From: an uncultured bacterium
GTDB lineage: Bacteria; UBP6; UBA1177; JAKLFG01
Direction: 5' to 3'
NCBI GenBank assembly: GCA_937871295.1
Contig: CALMRE010000211.1
Location: forward strand, 1 to 34,912
DNA: 34,912 nucleotides
In this document: positions 23,688 through 34,912 of the stretch, in pieces
Position numbering within the stretch: position 1 is the stretch's first letter
Layout: each line of letters begins with the position of its first letter
Program-made: the position numbers and the translations under genes
The notes under the pieces: model-generated
The model's input: only the letters and a program-made list of their open reading frames with translations
What the model was told of the DNA's origin: nothing
Databases searched by the model: none

Positions 23688-26600
23688 TTAGCGGGTGGAC
23701 GGTGACTTCTTCTTGACCGTCTTCTTCTTGGTCTTTTTTTCCCGCCCTGTCAAGGGAGGGGTAGGGGCAGGTTTTCTCTGCGTCGGCTGGCACAAAACCC
23801 CCTTATTCCCCCTTGACAGGGGGACGCTGAGCATCTCCAGCAACTTATCCACGCGGTACTCCGACAGCGGCAGCGCGTCGAGTATCCGTCGGGCGAGGGT
23901 GGTGCGGAGCGCCAGTTCCTTTTTCTTCTTCGCCGCGGGCAGATCGCCGCGGAGGATGTCGAGCACCGCCATGACGAACAGGCCGTTCACGAAATGTTCG
24001 GCCGCCTCCTTGTTGAAGTAGCGGATCCCCTTGTATTCGTTCATCTGGAGGATGCGGTGCATATTCTCGTCGGCGAAGATATCGCTCATCATCGCGTGGC
24101 AGATATCTTCCGCGGGATACTGGCGCCACCAGTTCTGGTAGTGGACGAAGGCGCGGATGTGCCGCTGTTCCATCTCGGCGTGCCGTTCGCTGCGTCCCAT
24201 CGCCCGGAACAGGTGCAGGAACACCTCCTCGAGCAGGTATTTCCTGAGTATCGCGTTGGAAGTCGGACCGTCGTTGCGGTCGAGCGTTATCTGCGACAGA
24301 CGGGCGGTGAGGGTCCAGCCGAACATCATCAGGAGGGTGTGGATGTCGTCGCTGATGACCGCGGTCAGCCATTCCTGCGCCGGCGGATGAAGCGGGGTCA
24401 GATCGACGGCGGGCAGTTCGAGGAAGGCGGCCATGTCGTGGAGGAAGAGTCCCGCGAGCAGATCGGTGTCGCCGGCGCCGCCGTGGTAGAGCCGCAATTC
24501 CTCGAGGAAGGAGCGGTAGTGGGCGGCGAGCGGGAACAGGAGGTCGCGCGGCGTCCCGGCCCCTTTCTTCGCCGTCGTCGCCGTGGCGGTGCGGGCGGCG
24601 GCCAGTTTGCGGAAGGTGTCGGGGTCGGCGATGCGGCGGAAGGCGGCGTGGAGCGGCGCCAGCGTCAGCATCGTGAGGGCGCGGCCGATGTCGGGGACGC
24701 CCCGTCCGTCGAGCGCGTCATGGAGGGCGCCCCACGGTTCGGCGGCCGATCCGGTCACTTCGCGCAAGCCGACGAAGACCTGATATTTGTAGGCCCCAAG
24801 CGTCGCGCAGAAGCCCTGTCCGTTGAGGTCGTCGATGCGCCGGATATATTCGAGATCGGTGATATGATCGCGCAGGAGCAGATAGCGCTCCGCGCCGGGG
24901 GTGAGCCCGAGCCCCTCGACGAGCGTCCGCTGGATTATCCGGCCGCCTACCTTGTCGAGGAACCCGACCGATGTGCGGACCCGTCCCGTCGTTTCGCGGA
25001 ACTTGTTGTTGAACAGGATCAGCGCCCGCTCCTCGCCGTGCCGGTTGGAGTAGGCGTAGACATGCTCGTCGACCGTGCCGTCGTCCCGCTGGAAGTCGTA
25101 GAGGAAGAAGTTGTCGACCCCGGCGAACAGCCACCGTTTCCGCAGCAGCGGGAAGACCTCCCGTTCGTGGCGCTGGACCAGATGGTGGTCTATCGCCTCG
25201 TTCCAGTAGGCTTTATGGTATTCCATCCCGTATTTCTCGGTGAAGCCCTCTATCTGGCCGTGGCCGAACATCGGGAGGCCCGGCATGGTCGCCATAAGGA
25301 GGCAGACGCCGAAATACTTGTCGTCCCTGCCGAACTGTTCGACCGCCGTCTTTTCGTCGGGGTTGTTGAGGAAGTTGACGAACCGCTGGAGGATGTGCGG
25401 ATCGAACTCGAGGACGTTGCGTATCGAGAGACGGTACTGATCGTTCTCCTCGTTCTTGAGGAAGTGCATGAAGGCGCTGTTGTAGACGCGGTGCATCCCG
25501 AGGGTGCGGACGAAGTAGCCCTCCATCAGCCAGAAGGCCTCGGCCAGCAGCAGCGTGTCGGGCAGTTCGGCTTGTACCCGGTCGACCACCTCGCGCCAGA
25601 ATTCGTTCGGGATCTTTTCGTTGAACTGGTCGCGGGTCAGGGCATGTTCGGCGCGCGACGGGATATCGCCGCCGCTCCCCGGCTCGGGGAACCAGAGCCG
25701 CTGATAATGCCGTTTGGCCAGCGTCATCGCGGCGTCGAAACGGATGACCGGGAACTGCCGCGCCACATGGAGGATGGTCTGAATGACCGCTTCGCGCACT
25801 TCGGGTTTGGTGTAGTCGAGTTGCGCGGTGTCGTTCCACGGGTAACTCGTGCCGTCGTTGCCGTGATAGATGTAGCGGACATCGTTATAGCGGAAATCGA
25901 CCCGCTTGAAGGTGACCGCCGCATCGGTCTTGTCGTAGTAGCGGTCCTCGATGTAGATGCCGAGGTGCTCCTCGGTCGAGAGGTTCGGGCCGTTGTAGGT
26001 GTACGACGGGAACGGCGGCTGAGGCGTCTGGAGGAACCAGTCGGGGTGATGGTGGATCCAGCGCGAATCGATGGCCATGTGGTTGGGGACCATGTCGCTG
26101 GCGAGCCGGATGCCGCAATTCTTCGCCCGATCCTTCAGCGTCGCCAGCGCCGTTTCGCCGCCCAGTTCGGCCGCGATGGTGTAGTCGTGCAGTGAATAGG
26201 CCGACGCGGCCGCTTCGGGATTCCCCATGATCCGTTTTATGGTGCGGCTCGCGCTCGACCGTTCCCACACGCCGATGAGCCACAGGCCGGAGAAACCCCA
26301 GCGGGCGAGTTTCTTGAGTTCATCCTCGGGGATATCGTCGAGCCGGGTCAGGTGTTTCCCGTACTGTTTCGACAACTGGTCGAGCCAGACGAAGGCGTTC
26401 TTGGCGACCATCACGAGGTTGGGCATCCAGTCGCGGTCGGGCGAGAAGGCCTCGTATTCGTGGTCGCGCCATTCGGAGCGGGCAAAACCGCCGCCGCGCA
26501 AACTCTCGCCGGTGATGACCTCGCCGTGTCCCTCGACCGGGAAGAGCGCCTTTTCCTCTTCGCGCAGCATATCGCCGCCGGTCAGCACCTTCATGAAGTG

Positions 26601-27383
26601 GCCGCCGACGAACTGGAGTCCCCACGCCTCGCGGATGAAGCGCAACTGGTCGGCCAGCGAGTCGGGACTGCTGAGTCCCGGCGCCATGAGAAGATCGATC
26701 AGGTTCTTTCCGCCGGGGCCGAAGGCCGGTTTCTGCGCGAAAAATTCGCCGAGCGCCGCGGTCATCTCGCCGTACCGGGTCGTTTCGCGCAGCGGCGCGT
26801 CGCTGAAAAGTTCTTCGTAGCGTTTGAAGGCGGGGTTGCGGTTGGCGATATGGAGCATCAGCAGTTCTTCCAGTTCCACTTCCGGCGCCGGATCGTCGCC
26901 GCACTTCCCGGCCAGATAGTCCGAAAGACTCATCTCGCCGCGGTAGACCGGGAGCGGCGGGAACTCCTCGGCGAAACGGCGGACCAGCGCGTCGGTGTCG
27001 TCGCCGAACCGTTCGCGCAGGAAGGAGAGCGCCTCGGAAAAGAGGGTCGGCACCACCTGCGTGCGGTAGAGCCGCACGACATGGTGGAGCACCTCGTCGA
27101 TGAGCGCCATGGCGTTGAGATGGCCCGCCTTCACCGCCTGTTCGGGGTGGTTGACGAGATCCTTCTGTTCGTTCATCGTATGGGCGAAACGGCGCACCGC
27201 CGCGTAGTCGGGGAAGACCACGTTGCCCGACAGGGTGAATATCCGCTCCTCGAAACGGTAGCGGTCGCGGCTGGCGCGCGAGACATGGAAGTGGCGGAGG
27301 TTCCGGTCGGGACGGGCTGAGGCCGTCGCCGGTTCAAAGCGGGTGAGGGTCAGCAGCAGTCCGGGAAAGGCGCGATTCTTCAT
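23688..27383 (-). CDS. Large GH13 alpha-amylase-family enzyme
   Basis: A 1231-aa protein without a signal peptide, so probably cytoplasmic. The central barrel (about 360-780) shows the four GH13 regions: I DMVPNH (430-435); II VIRFDAA with nucleophile Asp550; III LLLAEAF with acid/base Glu615; and IV as FLNNPDE with candidate Asp676 in place of the usual HD pair. FGHGQIEGFTEKYG follows. Helical regions flank it (about 60-350 and 900-1160), containing FVHYQNWWRQYPAEDI and RGIRYFNKEA-like segments. Members act on alpha-1,4 or 1,6 glucans, by hydrolysis or transfer; the exact reaction cannot be read. Residues about 1187-1215 derive from a palindromic DNA element, and the last 17 are Lys/Ser/Thr-rich. 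It is transcribed alone from 27413-27441. Confidence 0.9.
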   Translation of the reverse strand: MKNRAFPGLLLTLTRFEPATASARPDRNLRHFHVSRASRDRYRFEERIFTLSGNVVFPDYAAVRRFAHTMNEQKDLVNHPEQAVKAGHLNAMALIDEVLHHVVRLYRTQVVPTLFSEALSFLRERFGDDTDALVRRFAEEFPPLPVYRGEMSLSDYLAGKCGDDPAPEVELEELLMLHIANRNPAFKRYEELFSDAPLRETTRYGEMTAALGEFFAQKPAFGPGGKNLIDLLMAPGLSSPDSLADQLRFIREAWGLQFVGGHFMKVLTGGDMLREEEKALFPVEGHGEVITGESLRGGGFARSEWRDHEYEAFSPDRDWMPNLVMVAKNAFVWLDQLSKQYGKHLTRLDDIPEDELKKLARWGFSGLWLIGVWERSSASRTIKRIMGNPEAAASAYSLHDYTIAAELGGETALATLKDRAKNCGIRLASDMVPNHMAIDSRWIHHHPDWFLQTPQPPFPSYTYNGPNLSTEEHLGIYIEDRYYDKTDAAVTFKRVDFRYNDVRYIYHGNDGTSYPWNDTAQLDYTKPEVREAVIQTILHVARQFPVIRFDAAMTLAKRHYQRLWFPEPGSGGDIPSRAEHALTRDQFNEKIPNEFWREVVDRVQAELPDTLLLAEAFWLMEGYFVRTLGMHRVYNSAFMHFLKNEENDQYRLSIRNVLEFDPHILQRFVNFLNNPDEKTAVEQFGRDDKYFGVCLLMATMPGLPMFGHGQIEGFTEKYGMEYHKAYWNEAIDHHLVQRHEREVFPLLRKRWLFAGVDNFFLYDFQRDDGTVDEHVYAYSNRHGEERALILFNNKFRETTGRVRTSVGFLDKVGGRIIQRTLVEGLGLTPGAERYLLLRDHITDLEYIRRIDDLNGQGFCATLGAYKYQVFVGLREVTGSAAEPWGALHDALDGRGVPDIGRALTMLTLAPLHAAFRRIADPDTFRKLAAARTATATTAKKGAGTPRDLLFPLAAHYRSFLEELRLYHGGAGDTDLLAGLFLHDMAAFLELPAVDLTPLHPPAQEWLTAVISDDIHTLLMMFGWTLTARLSQITLDRNDGPTSNAILRKYLLEEVFLHLFRAMGRSERHAEMEQRHIRAFVHYQNWWRQYPAEDICHAMMSDIFADENMHRILQMNEYKGIRYFNKEAAEHFVNGLFVMAVLDILRGDLPAAKKKKELALRTTLARRILDALPLSEYRVDKLLEMLSVPLSRGNKGVLCQPTQRKPAPTPPLTGREKKTKKKTVKKKSPSTR
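23742..23823. repeat. 82-bp palindromic element inserted in frame in the GH13 gene
   Basis: The ends are imperfect inverted repeats: CCCTGTCAAGGGAGGGG inward from 23745, and CCCTGTCAAGGGGGAATAAG inward (opposite strand) from about 23821. Each end contains its own small palindrome (CCCTTGACAGGG). The element is read in frame on the minus strand as PLSRGNKG...PTPPLTGRE, a composition unlike the rest of the enzyme. A half-element lies at 1063-1096. Compare Rickettsia palindromic elements and REP/MITE-type repeats. Confidence 0.75.
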
Positions 27384-31469: not shown

Positions 31470-32561
31470 ATGAAACGCGGGACCCTGCTCGCGGCGCTGT
31501 GCGGCGCCCTGCTGCTGCTGACCGCCTGCGACGACGCGGGCGACGGAAAGAAGACGATGCCGGTGGACGAGTTCTTCGAGACCTATCTCAAGACGCTGTG
31601 CGACAGTTCGTCGAAGTACAGCGACGGCATCATCACCGCCTCCAACAAGGCCTCCTGTGCGCAGGCCATCATGGAGAGCCTCTTCGCCTACGATTTCTTC
31701 CATGCCGGGCGGCCCACCGTTTTCAAGCAGAAGGTCTATCTCCTGCGCAAGGCCGAAACGAAGAAGTGGCTTTCGATAGACGCCGAACAGGCGCAGAAAT
31801 GCTTCTCGACCGTCGGCCAGATGCAGCCCTACAACCCGCTCAACATCCAGTTGTTCGACATCGCCGAGTGCGCGATCGCCTTCGAGGGAGAGAAGATCAT
31901 CAACGATCAGTGCTATCAGGACGAGGAGTGCGACGACGGCTGGTGCAACCTGTCGGGCGGCGCCTGTCCGGGTCGCTGCGTCCTCTACCGCCAGCAGGGG
32001 GAGCCGTGCAATGAGAACCTCGACCGCTGTGAACCGGGCTATACCTGCCTGTCCTCGGGCTGTTCGCGTCTCTCGTCGGGGGCGAAAGGGGAGCCCTGCA
32101 TGGCCGACGAACACTGTGCGAGTTATCTTTACTGCCGCAAGGGTTCGGAGACCGACGCGACCGGCATCTGCTTCGAAAAGAAAGGGGTGGGCAAGAGTTG
32201 CGAAGAGCCGCGCGAATGCCTGACCGGCCTGACCTGCATCGAGGAGACCTGTCAGGGTCCCGAGATACCCGACGCCGTCGGCGCCGACTGCAGCGCGTCG
32301 CTTCTGTGCAACTACTTCTCGCGGCTCGAATGCGGCAAGACCGGCGAAAACACCTTCGCCTGCCGTTACTTCCCGGCCAACGAGGGGGATCCGTGCACCT
32401 TCCAGTGCGGCAGTCAACTCTACTGCAGTCCCCAGACCTATTCCTGCACCTACTTCAGCAAACTCGAAGAGCCGTGCGGCAAATACTACCAGTGCTCTTC
32501 GCTCTACTGCGGCGATGCGGGCTTCTGCGATATGCCCGAATGCGAGCAGACCATAGAGTAG
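31470..32561 (+). CDS. Cys-rich lipoprotein with Dickkopf-like repeats
   Basis: A 363-aa predicted lipoprotein: MKRGTLLAALCGALLLLTAC, anchor Cys20, followed by Asp-Asp. Residues 30-140 form a helical domain (VDEFFETYLKTLCDSSSKY, QAIMESLFAYDFFHAG). From about 148 to the end there are repeated Cys modules of the type GEPCxxxxxCxxGxxCxxxxC (GEPCNENLDRCEPGYTC, GEPCMADEHCASYLYC, GKSCEEPRECLTGLTC, GDPCTFQCGSQLYC, EPCGKYYQCSSLYC). They resemble the N-terminal Dickkopf Cys-rich repeat found in many myxobacterial surface proteins. The many disulfides imply an oxidising site outside the inner membrane. It starts 13 nt after lapB and precedes a thioredoxin-like lipoprotein by 3 nt, which might help its disulfide formation. 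Ligand unknown. Confidence 0.9.
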   Translation: MKRGTLLAALCGALLLLTACDDAGDGKKTMPVDEFFETYLKTLCDSSSKYSDGIITASNKASCAQAIMESLFAYDFFHAGRPTVFKQKVYLLRKAETKKWLSIDAEQAQKCFSTVGQMQPYNPLNIQLFDIAECAIAFEGEKIINDQCYQDEECDDGWCNLSGGACPGRCVLYRQQGEPCNENLDRCEPGYTCLSSGCSRLSSGAKGEPCMADEHCASYLYCRKGSETDATGICFEKKGVGKSCEEPRECLTGLTCIEETCQGPEIPDAVGADCSASLLCNYFSRLECGKTGENTFACRYFPANEGDPCTFQCGSQLYCSPQTYSCTYFSKLEEPCGKYYQCSSLYCGDAGFCDMPECEQTIE

Positions 32562-32564
32562 GCC

Positions 32565-33122
32565 ATGATGACGCGCATCCTCCTTTTTCTTCCCGCGGCG
32601 CTCCTCTTTTTCTCCTGCGCCGCTCCCCGTCCCGCCGTCGTGCCGCCCGTTGCGGCGCCGACGCCGGTCGTCGAAAAAAAGGTCGAGCCCCCGACCCCCG
32701 CGGATGAACCGGCGACCCCGGCCGACGAACTGCTTCTGCGCGATCCGGCGACCGGCGCCGTATCGTCGCTGGCCGAACTCGCGGCGGGCGGACCGGCGCT
32801 CATCGACCTTTCGGCCAGTTGGTGCGAGCCCTGCGTTGCCCTCACCGAACGGCTCAACACCCTTCAGCAGAAATTCGCGGGGCGCATCCGTTTTTTCATG
32901 GTCCTTCAGAAAGGCGACGCCCCCGACCGCCTGCCGGGACTGCCCGAATACCCGGTCTATCAACTGGAGCGGGCCCCCGCGCCGCTGGGGATAACGCCGC
33001 CGCAGATACTGCCGACGGTGCTGGTCTTCGGCGCCGACGGAACGGTCGCGGCCGAACTGGAGGGACTCTATCCGGGGTTGTACTATTACGGTGTCATCGC
33101 CGATGTGACGGCCGGTAACTAG
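32565..33122 (+). CDS. Thioredoxin-fold lipoprotein (WCEPC active site)
   Basis: A 185-aa predicted lipoprotein. Lipobox LLFFSC (Cys18), a Pro/Ala/Val/Glu spacer (20-55), then a thioredoxin-like domain. GPALIDLSASWCEPC has active-site Cys87 and Cys90, and ILPTVLVFGADG has the cis-Pro150 opposite the active site. FFMVLQKGDAPDRLPGLPEYPVY is the intervening helix region. Members of this kind (TlpA/ResA-like) reduce or exchange disulfides outside the cytoplasm. It follows the Cys-rich lipoprotein by 3 nt, so a service role in its folding is a plausible inference. An ATG three bases later (32568) is an equal start candidate. The stop overlaps that of the convergent methyltransferase-like gene (both TAG, sharing CTAG). 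Confidence 0.9.
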   Translation: MMTRILLFLPAALLFFSCAAPRPAVVPPVAAPTPVVEKKVEPPTPADEPATPADELLLRDPATGAVSSLAELAAGGPALIDLSASWCEPCVALTERLNTLQQKFAGRIRFFMVLQKGDAPDRLPGLPEYPVYQLERAPAPLGITPPQILPTVLVFGADGTVAAELEGLYPGLYYYGVIADVTAGN

Positions 33123-34681
33123 GAGCGGTACCTCTCCGTCACCCGCTCGACTATCCGTATCTCGTCGTGGGTCAGCCGGAAATGCTGGTACATATCGCGG
33201 TCGAGGTTCCGCCGTTCGCGCTCCGCCTGCGCCGATATATCCTTTTGGGCGTTCTCCGGAGAACAGAGCAGGTGCCGCAGATTCTCGACCGCCTGCGCGA
33301 CGATCTTCTGGACATGTTTCTTGGCCGGCACAAAGGGAAGATTGTTGAAGTTCTTCTTGAGGAACTTGTTATGGTGGGGGAACTTCAGCGTGTAGTAGAA
33401 CAGCATCACGTTCGAATTGAAGTAACCCTCGGCGAACTCGAGCGATATCTCGTCGCTTTTCGGGATGATCCCGGCGATGTCGCTCATAAAATGGAGCCCC
33501 GTCCGGTCGATGCACATCACCGGCCGCACCGACAGATAGCGGGCGATGAGTTTATGCCGTTCGAACTGCGCCGCCGCCGGCAACTGGAAGAAGAACTCCT
33601 TGTCGGGGATGATCCACGAACCGGGCGCCGGATCGGTGAAAGGGACCACCTCCTTGCCGCGGATGAAGGGCTTATAGCGGTTGGAGCGGCGCATGGTCTC
33701 GATGGGCGGCTTAATTCCCTGTTCGGGGAACATTCCGATGAAGAAATCGAAATGGTCGGCGCATGTGCCGTCGGCCAGCGACTCTATCTTCTGGAGCAGA
33801 TGTATCTCCTCGTGGGCGAGGCTGTCGTTGAAGGTGAGCAGGTTGTTGAAGGTGATGAAGTCGCCGGGGACGCTCGAGAAGGTGCCGGCCACCGTATCGG
33901 TTATCGTGACGGCCCGTTCCGGTTCGGCGGGGCGTTTCCTGCCGAGATGAAGTATCAGTTTCTGCCGATCCTTGGTTATCTCGCGCAGGGAGAACAGGTC
34001 GTAGAGGAACTTTTTGGCTTTTTTGGTCCCGGGAGAGACGAGGAAATTCTTCTTGAGGTGAAACAGGTAGGAGCCCTCCTCATGAAGCAGCAGCGCGATA
34101 TTCTTGAAAAAACCCTCCTCCGGCAGGGCCGTCACCACCGCTTCGTCGAGGATGAGGTCGAACCGGTAGGGCTTTATCTTGCTCTGATCGGTCGACAGCA
34201 GGTCGAAAATGGTCGCCTGCACCGATATCTCGACCGGTTTCTCCTTCGAGAGGGGGTAGCAGAGGACCGCGGGGAAAGGACTCTGGAACGCCCCCTCGTC
34301 ATGGTAGGCGAAGTGGAGCGCGTGACCCTTTTCCAAATGATAGGGAAGATAGACGGCATCCGAAAGGAACAGGATGTCGTGACGGTCCGTGGCGTTGCGT
34401 GGTGACGCCTCCATCGGCGCGGGATTGGGGAGCGACAGAAGATAACTGACCGACCACGACGAGACGACTTCCCGTTTCAGACGGTCGCTGAAACGGCTGT
34501 TTATCTTCACGAAGTCATCGGCCGATATGCCGGCCAGCAGGGTCGGCGAGAGCCGTTTCCCCGACACCGTAAAGTAAAAGCGGTTGAGGAGGAATGTGTA
34601 GGGGTCGGTCGCGATACCGGTTTCGCCGCAAAAGGAGCGAATGTCCTTGAATAATTTCAATAACTTCTTTCTTTTATCCAT
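33119..34681 (-). CDS. N6-adenine methyltransferase-like protein with degenerate catalytic motif and intact TRD-like half
   Basis: A 520-aa protein. The C-terminal half resembles the TaqI/Eco57I-type target-recognition region: YKPFIRGKEVVPF (336-348), KLIARYLSVRPVMCIDRTGLHF, then YFNSNVMLFYYTLKFPHHNKF (from 420) and NNLPFVP (446-452), ending in a long charged helix. The central part (about 150-230) follows the methyltransferase pattern around motif IV: a strand YRFDLIL (172-178), then GFFKNIALLLHEEGSYLFHLKKNFL where these enzymes have 'lLkpgGy...ivp..fl'. But NPPY is replaced by DEAV (179-182), and no DPxxGxG SAM motif is evident, so catalysis is unlikely. It may be a DNA-binding or regulatory pseudoenzyme. 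No restriction gene is adjacent. It has its own promoter. Confidence 0.7.
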   Translation of the reverse strand: MDKRKKLLKLFKDIRSFCGETGIATDPYTFLLNRFYFTVSGKRLSPTLLAGISADDFVKINSRFSDRLKREVVSSWSVSYLLSLPNPAPMEASPRNATDRHDILFLSDAVYLPYHLEKGHALHFAYHDEGAFQSPFPAVLCYPLSKEKPVEISVQATIFDLLSTDQSKIKPYRFDLILDEAVVTALPEEGFFKNIALLLHEEGSYLFHLKKNFLVSPGTKKAKKFLYDLFSLREITKDRQKLILHLGRKRPAEPERAVTITDTVAGTFSSVPGDFITFNNLLTFNDSLAHEEIHLLQKIESLADGTCADHFDFFIGMFPEQGIKPPIETMRRSNRYKPFIRGKEVVPFTDPAPGSWIIPDKEFFFQLPAAAQFERHKLIARYLSVRPVMCIDRTGLHFMSDIAGIIPKSDEISLEFAEGYFNSNVMLFYYTLKFPHHNKFLKKNFNNLPFVPAKKHVQKIVAQAVENLRHLLCSPENAQKDISAQAERERRNLDRDMYQHFRLTHDEIRIVERVTERYRS

Positions 34682-34708
34682 GGAAAATACCCCATTCGGT
34701 GCTTCGAT

Positions 34709-34737
34709 ACTGTATAACCATTGAAGAGAAATTGCAA
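34709..34737 (-). promoter_or_regulatory. Candidate promoter of the methyltransferase-like gene
   Basis: Minus strand TTGCAA (34732-34737), 17 bp, TACAGT (34709-34714), about 28 nt before the ATG at 34681. Confidence 0.5.
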
Positions 34738-34753
34738 AAAAAATCTTTTAGTG

Positions 34754-34780
34754 AAAAAAAACGGGGCCGTTGCCGGCCCC
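34754..34780 (-). terminator. Rho-independent terminator of the partial acidic gene
   Basis: A 7-bp stem (34763-34769 with 34774-34780). On the minus strand it has a GCAA tetraloop and is followed by a run of T (complement of the A run 34754-34761). The design is the same as the HU terminator. It separates the acidic gene from the methyltransferase-like gene. Confidence 0.85.
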
Positions 34781-34808
34781 ATCAGGGAATTCAAAACCGC
34801 CGAACGGC

Positions 34809-34912
34809 TTAGTTGTCGGTCAGCAGTTCGTCGGTGACTTCGTTGTCGGTCTCTTCCTCGTCGGGAAGTTCGCCCACGCCGAATTCATCCTTCATGTCTT
34901 CGCAGTCCATGA
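34809..34912 (-). CDS. Acidic protein, C-terminal fragment (continues beyond the window)
   Basis: Only the last 33 codons are in the window, reading DCEDMKDEFGVGELPDEEE followed by TDNEVTDELLTDN and the stop TAA (34809-34811). The tail is strongly acidic and resembles the acidic ends of the lipoproteins in this window (compare the end of the protein at 16412), so another secreted or lipid-anchored protein is likely. It is followed 29 nt later by a good terminator. No domain is visible. Confidence 0.65.
   Translation of the reverse strand, partial: MDCEDMKDEFGVGELPDEEETDNEVTDELLTDN

Follow-up and report, generated by a model that had tools for sequence, protein, structure and literature searches.

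Can the DNA-reading half of an adenine methyltransferase be kept by selection once its catalytic half has died? The question is raised by a gene near the end of contig CALMRE010000211.1 (assembly GCA_937871295.1), a stretch of 34,912 nucleotides (nt), referred to here as a whole as the window, from an uncultured bacterium (GTDB lineage Bacteria; UBP6; UBA1177; JAKLFG01). A sequence-only reading had described the 520-residue product of this gene as a methyltransferase-like pseudoenzyme, with its specificity half kept and DEAV in place of the catalytic NPPY, and had proposed three roles for it: a repressor, an anti-restriction decoy or part of a defence unit. The description has held up. Of the roles, the repressor gains indirect support from a conserved box in the promoter region of the gene, and the other two are unsupported. 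The best explanation of the whole, to which we give just short of an even chance, is that a dead relative of the N6-adenine methyltransferases has been kept as a sequence-specific DNA-binding regulator of its own gene.

The loss of catalysis is well supported. At the place of motif IV, the window protein reads FDLILDEAVV, and NPP[YFW] is found at this place in none of the 25 homologues aligned, where the pattern is D-[D/E]-[A/S/I], with D179 invariant and residue 180 either D or E in all 25. The glycines of the S-adenosylmethionine (SAM)-binding motif, motif I, which the earlier reading had also reported missing, are absent throughout the family: the corresponding place reads [L/M]-[S/T/A]-[D/E/P]-[A/S/T], without glycine, in 24 of the 24 rows reaching it, and these rows, read by eye, have no glycine from strand 1 to the next helix (about residues 102–118). 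One copy (L025) lacks the N-terminal half and the upstream region, and is excluded from the counts made on either. The fold of the N-terminal half was modelled with AlphaFold2 (AF2; residues 1–258, mean predicted local distance difference test score (pLDDT) 87.9, predicted template modelling score (pTM) 0.86), and all 50 rows listed by the VIA fold search with this model were SAM-methyltransferase-type domains or proteins containing one (Z 10.4–11.4), M.BseCI being among those listed (Z 10.4, root-mean-square deviation (rmsd) 3.4, 143 residues aligned). With the full model, Foldseek ranked CamA, M.BseCI and M.TaqI first, and VIA gave M.BseCI as its best match (Z 12.9, rmsd 6.2, 338 residues aligned), together with CamA. 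As judged from predicted models only, the protein has the fold of a class I Rossmann methyltransferase with a likeness to enzymes carrying a target-recognition domain (TRD), as the sequence-only reading had expected. Sequence comparisons were less informative for the N-terminal half: no methyltransferase family in Pfam or NCBIfam matched it in the window protein, Methyltransf_31 was matched by one of the 25 homologues (E 0.035), and phmmer and profile searches of the sequences in the PDB gave no relevant match. In 32 of 33 other methyltransferase loci, most of them from the same phylum, the corresponding strand is followed by NPP[YFW], which is an illustration and no test, the frames having been picked by that pattern. 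Taken together, the motifs and the predicted fold indicate that this protein is very probably a methyltransferase-like pseudoenzyme that has lost both SAM binding and catalysis.

The recognition half is preserved. TaqI_C is the sole Pfam match of the window protein (residues 338–449; E 1.5e-7, 32.1 bits for a cut-off of 26.5) and is matched in all 25 homologues; the PADLOC profiles for MTase_II (type II methyltransferase) and type IIG enzymes also match mainly on this half. The recognition domain is the best-conserved part of the 25-row alignment, with a mean column entropy of 0.95 and 30 of 125 columns invariant, whereas the degenerate methyltransferase domain has a mean column entropy of 1.33 and 15 of 166 columns invariant.

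The gene is neither decaying nor mobile. It is uninterrupted, as had been claimed, has a single copy in the window's genome and is present in one copy in each of the 25 genomes examined in the order (three families, eight genera); 23 of these copies are complete, and two (L022 and L025) are cut by contig ends. The phylum sample of 28 genomes also includes three from another family outside the order, none of which has the gene (0/3), matches to the recognition half being found in other frames only. Beyond the phylum, distribution was only sampled, by a profile search of 386 genomes and one contig scan for close relatives. The profile search gave six matches outside the phylum at E 1e-12 or better, all to the recognition half only; the three that were read (L064–L066) are methyltransferases with NPPW. 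The contig scan gave three loci, all in metagenome-assembled genomes, and no relatives were found in the viral contigs, plasmids, phages or PHROGs searched. In the 14 closest pairs, the ratio of nonsynonymous to synonymous substitution rates (dN/dS) is 0.044–0.080 for the whole gene and 0.020–0.091 for the degenerate domain, and all domains are constrained. Pairwise divergence of the gene follows that of der across 23 genomes (r 0.943; none of 2000 Mantel permutations gave a value as high). Because dN/dS is low and divergence tracks der, the gene can be said to be vertically inherited and under selection, its dead half included.

The sequence-only reading had also given the gene a promoter of its own. 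This is plausible, but no sigma-70 site reached the threshold in a scan of positions 33000–34912. The region has a terminator-like hairpin upstream, a short AT-rich leader between this hairpin and the gene start, and a box found across the order. With starts set at the conserved N-terminus, TCGAA is present in all 24 readable upstream regions and TATCGAA in 22 of them, 25–28 nt 5' of the start codon (a 4-nt register). G+C content is 37–60% in the six stretches measured, and the leader around the box is otherwise little shared between the families f1, f2 and f3. The upstream regions of RibE, treated in the same way, shared their best 5-mer in only 8 of 23 cases, and shuffles of three lineages yielded an equally placed shared 7-mer in 2 of 20000 trials. 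RibE is a sound control (ATG in 23/23), whereas der is a weak one (start misplaced in 9/23); the der of G015 (L143, internal TGA) and the RibE of G016 (L172, cut by a contig end) were left out.

The combination of promoter and box is almost confined to this gene. The pattern TATAMT-N1-7-TATCGAAC gave 15 matches in 15 genomes, 13 of which are the pseudo-methyltransferase gene. One of the other two (G022, L112; C101:16898-16912) is TATACT-TATCGAAC, about 40 nt 5' of the start of a lipoprotein gene, and may be a further target, seen in G022 only; for the other (G008, L125), the stretch read shows no evident gene start, of a lipoprotein or otherwise, a short way downstream. The 9-mer TTATCGAAC has 32 copies in G008 and 20 in G018; 29 of the 30 copies read in G008 and 19 of the 20 in G018 lie inside predicted open reading frames (ORFs), and the sole remaining copy in each genome is the pseudo-methyltransferase promoter, although the gene calls were mechanical (longest ORFs of at least 70 amino acids (aa)) and "inside" may be wrong for some copies. 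In the loci compared, [AT]TCGAA is found upstream of 14 of 184 other genes; it lies about 49 nt 5' of the OPT transporter gene in 5 of 11 loci of genus g4 and is not conserved in the other copies. According to excerpts of PMC5502580, M.TaqI recognizes TCGA and M.BseCI recognizes ATCGAT. The TATCGAA box contains the first of these sites and shares ATCGA with the second, a likeness that is suggestive only.

The simplest explanation for a dead enzyme whose recognition domain is conserved, and whose gene has a constant box at its start, would be a self-controlling DNA-binding regulator. The motifs and predicted fold indicate that a methyltransferase relative of the TaqI/BseCI/CamA type had already lost SAM binding and its catalytic activity when the order diversified. 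The conserved recognition domain suggests that the protein was then kept for sequence-specific DNA binding. It most likely acts on transcription, with TATCGAA, at the head of the transcription unit to which its gene belongs, as one of its sites; binding there would limit the protein's own synthesis. In genus g4, this unit would continue into the gene for a sigma-54 response regulator, and probably into that for its histidine kinase, and, to judge from gene order and overlapping stop and start codons, the pseudoenzyme would also set the level of this two-component system, making these downstream genes obvious candidates for further regulation. These elements are not equally secure. For a role as a DNA-binding regulator, the chances appear to be evenly balanced. 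Autoregulation through the box is proposed more tentatively, and it is more doubtful still whether an adenine-methyltransferase recognition domain on a fossil catalytic domain has become a core, autoregulated, sequence-specific transcription factor fixed across the order.

Several observations weigh against this interpretation. Profile comparison (hhalign) of the N-terminal half with active enzymes from other genomes was not significant (E 0.18 and 0.046), and the equivalence of DEAV and NPPY therefore rests on strand order and on the FDhhh context. The recognition domain is modelled poorly in the full predicted model (pLDDT about 30–40 over residues 315–404), and the model therefore gives no hint as to which DNA is read. 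The promoter-plus-box search of 15 genomes found no wider set of conserved sites beyond the gene's own promoter. The likeness of the box to TCGA and ATCGAT may be due to chance, and the box could be a site for a different regulator or have its function in the mRNA leader. In family f1 and in genera g6–g8, where the contig continues beyond the gene, what follows is a convergent block that includes lipoprotein genes and others; the operon link with a two-component system is, therefore, not general.

The alternatives share parts of this evidence. The box might have nothing to do with the protein and serve, in the promoter or the mRNA leader, as an element used by another regulator or by the ribosome, with the pseudoenzyme doing something else, such as binding another nucleic acid or a metabolite. 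The nearly fixed distance from box to start codon would suit a translation element, and the spacing between box and -10-like hexamer, judged by eye, ranges from about 2 to 6 nt. However, the low frequency of [AT]TCGAA before other genes indicates that promoters do not commonly carry this element, a genome rarely has the promoter-plus-box pattern anywhere else, and the surrounding leader differs between the three families; we consider this explanation unlikely. A little less probable is a structural or site-masking protein occupying many TCGA-type chromosomal sites, in nucleoid organization or nuclease shielding, for which the promoter box would only set the amount of protein. The better conservation of the recognition domain than of the pseudo-catalytic domain is consistent with such a function, as is the frequency of the relevant hexamers in the loci (ATCGAA 302, TTCGAT 314 and TTCGAA 218 in 396036 bases), but many such hexamers occur by chance, and no constant restriction partner was seen.

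A non-catalytic partner of an active methyltransferase, in the manner of METTL14 and METTL3, would bind the substrate here and leave methylation to another subunit. Active-looking DNA methyltransferases do exist in these genomes, but across the 28 phylum genomes none of the three families searched (PF02384 was not among them) shows clear constancy or synteny, and no methyltransferase is a conserved neighbour of the gene. PF07669 is matched in 27/28 genomes, a count that includes short proteins (about 250–280 aa) that may not act on DNA; G004 has no match to it and G002 has only one, in a 988-aa frame. PF01555 is matched in 18/28 genomes and PF02086 in 6/28, these searches listing matching frames irrespective of their function. 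Such a partnership seems improbable. A defence component or anti-restriction decoy is far less credible: the PADLOC profiles do match the recognition half, but the gene is core, single-copy in 25/25 genomes and vertically inherited, with divergence that tracks the organisms, its neighbours are housekeeping genes, with no defence genes recognized beside it in the loci compared, and searches of phage, plasmid and viral collections found no relative. This part of the sequence-only reading can be set aside. An enzyme still active with unorthodox motifs is equally hard to sustain, as the fold and the acidic pair D-[D/E] at the motif IV place have been kept but there is no glycine motif I, no proline pair and no conserved aromatic residue after the acidic pair.

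A self-regulating DNA-binding pseudoenzyme would have parallels among known systems. M.BseCI and M.TaqI (gamma-class, TaqI_C) have the same layout as the window protein, in which a TaqI_C-type recognition domain comes after a class I Rossmann domain. They are active enzymes that carry the NPPY motif and have SAM sites, whereas the window family has lost motif I and motif IV and begins with an additional helical part. CamA of Clostridioides difficile is, according to excerpts of PMC8187626, an orphan present in every sequenced genome of its lineage, and its fold is similar to that of the window family; it has NPPY (Tyr168) and methylates CAAAAA, whereas the window protein should not methylate. 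METTL14 resembles the window family as a conserved pseudoenzyme of methyltransferase fold in which an acidic residue occupies the catalytic position and which has a role with nucleic acids (PMC5023411, in excerpt). It acts on RNA within a heterodimer, whereas the window family has a DNA recognition domain and no universal partner among the three families searched. Controller (C) proteins of restriction-modification systems are small helix-turn-helix proteins. They bind a site within their own promoter (PMC3874152, in excerpt), as is proposed here for the window protein, which, unlike them, is a 520-aa methyltransferase relative outside any recognized restriction system. The features of the locus are collected in Table 1.

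Table 1. Pseudo-methyltransferase gene, its domains and its upstream elements, in window coordinates
Feature	Position	Strand	Basis
Pseudo-methyltransferase gene, 520 codons	33119..34681	-	Open ORF, ATG start
TaqI_C-like target-recognition domain, residues 329-453	33323..33697	-	Pfam TaqI_C match; conserved segments around YLSV and HH-KFLK
Degenerate class I methyltransferase (Rossmann) domain, residues 85-250	33932..34429	-	Fold search; motif I glycines and NPPY absent
Motif IV place, residues 174-186, FDLILDEAVVTAL in place of FDxxxxNPPY	34124..34162	-	25-row alignment
N-terminal helical part, residues 1-84	34430..34681	-	AF2 model of residues 1-258
TATCGAA box, candidate operator of own gene	34703..34709	-	Conserved across upstream regions of the order
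Putative -10 hexamer TATACA	34711..34716	-	By eye; below the scanner's threshold
Terminator-like hairpin closing the upstream lipoprotein gene	34760..34783	-	Similar hairpin in homologous upstream regions

The usual gene order in g4 is FtsW-like protein, coiled-coil protein, OPT transporter, lipoprotein F1, pseudo-methyltransferase, sigma-54 response regulator, histidine kinase and serine/threonine kinase (the Pfam domains of the OPT, response-regulator, histidine-kinase and kinase proteins were checked in one genome, and FtsW is a reading of the sequence). The start of the response-regulator gene overlaps the stop of the pseudo-methyltransferase gene in 14 of 15 g4 loci; in 10 of these, the overlap is exactly 4 nt. 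In 16 of 21 stretches, the gene immediately upstream of the pseudo-methyltransferase gene belongs to the F1 family; the window is one of them, and there the F1 gene runs off the contig (34812-34912, gene end only). F1 is a family of secreted acidic lipoproteins, and the one member scanned (L031:10749-11642) has no Pfam match; F1 and the pseudo-methyltransferase form an old gene pair, found across two families. Elsewhere in the window, positions 31470-32561 encode a cysteine-rich lipoprotein of a family found in seven of the stretches compared, whose Dickkopf_N-like match (E 4.5e-6) is to a domain familiar chiefly from animals, and positions 23688-27383 (- strand) encode a 1231-aa protein with a match to an alpha-amylase catalytic domain (E 9.7e-11, residues 355-732). 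The g4 genomes carry large sets of Eco57I-type methyltransferase frames (13 matches each in G008 and G012, nine in G007); several are about 1000 aa long, those read have NPPF, and they are possible type IIG enzymes.

The known roles of adenine DNA methyltransferases are enzymatic, in restriction and epigenetic control. No bacterial regulator described as a conserved pseudo N6-adenine DNA methyltransferase came up in a search of openly licensed PMC literature, and excerpts of PMC12839542 and PMC9973331 describe no natural catalytically dead DNA methyltransferase. The direct prediction of the regulatory interpretation is that the pseudo-methyltransferase protein binds TATCGAA. If the interpretation is correct, the DNA-reading half of such an enzyme would be selectable on its own, and would constitute a new source of bacterial DNA-binding regulators.
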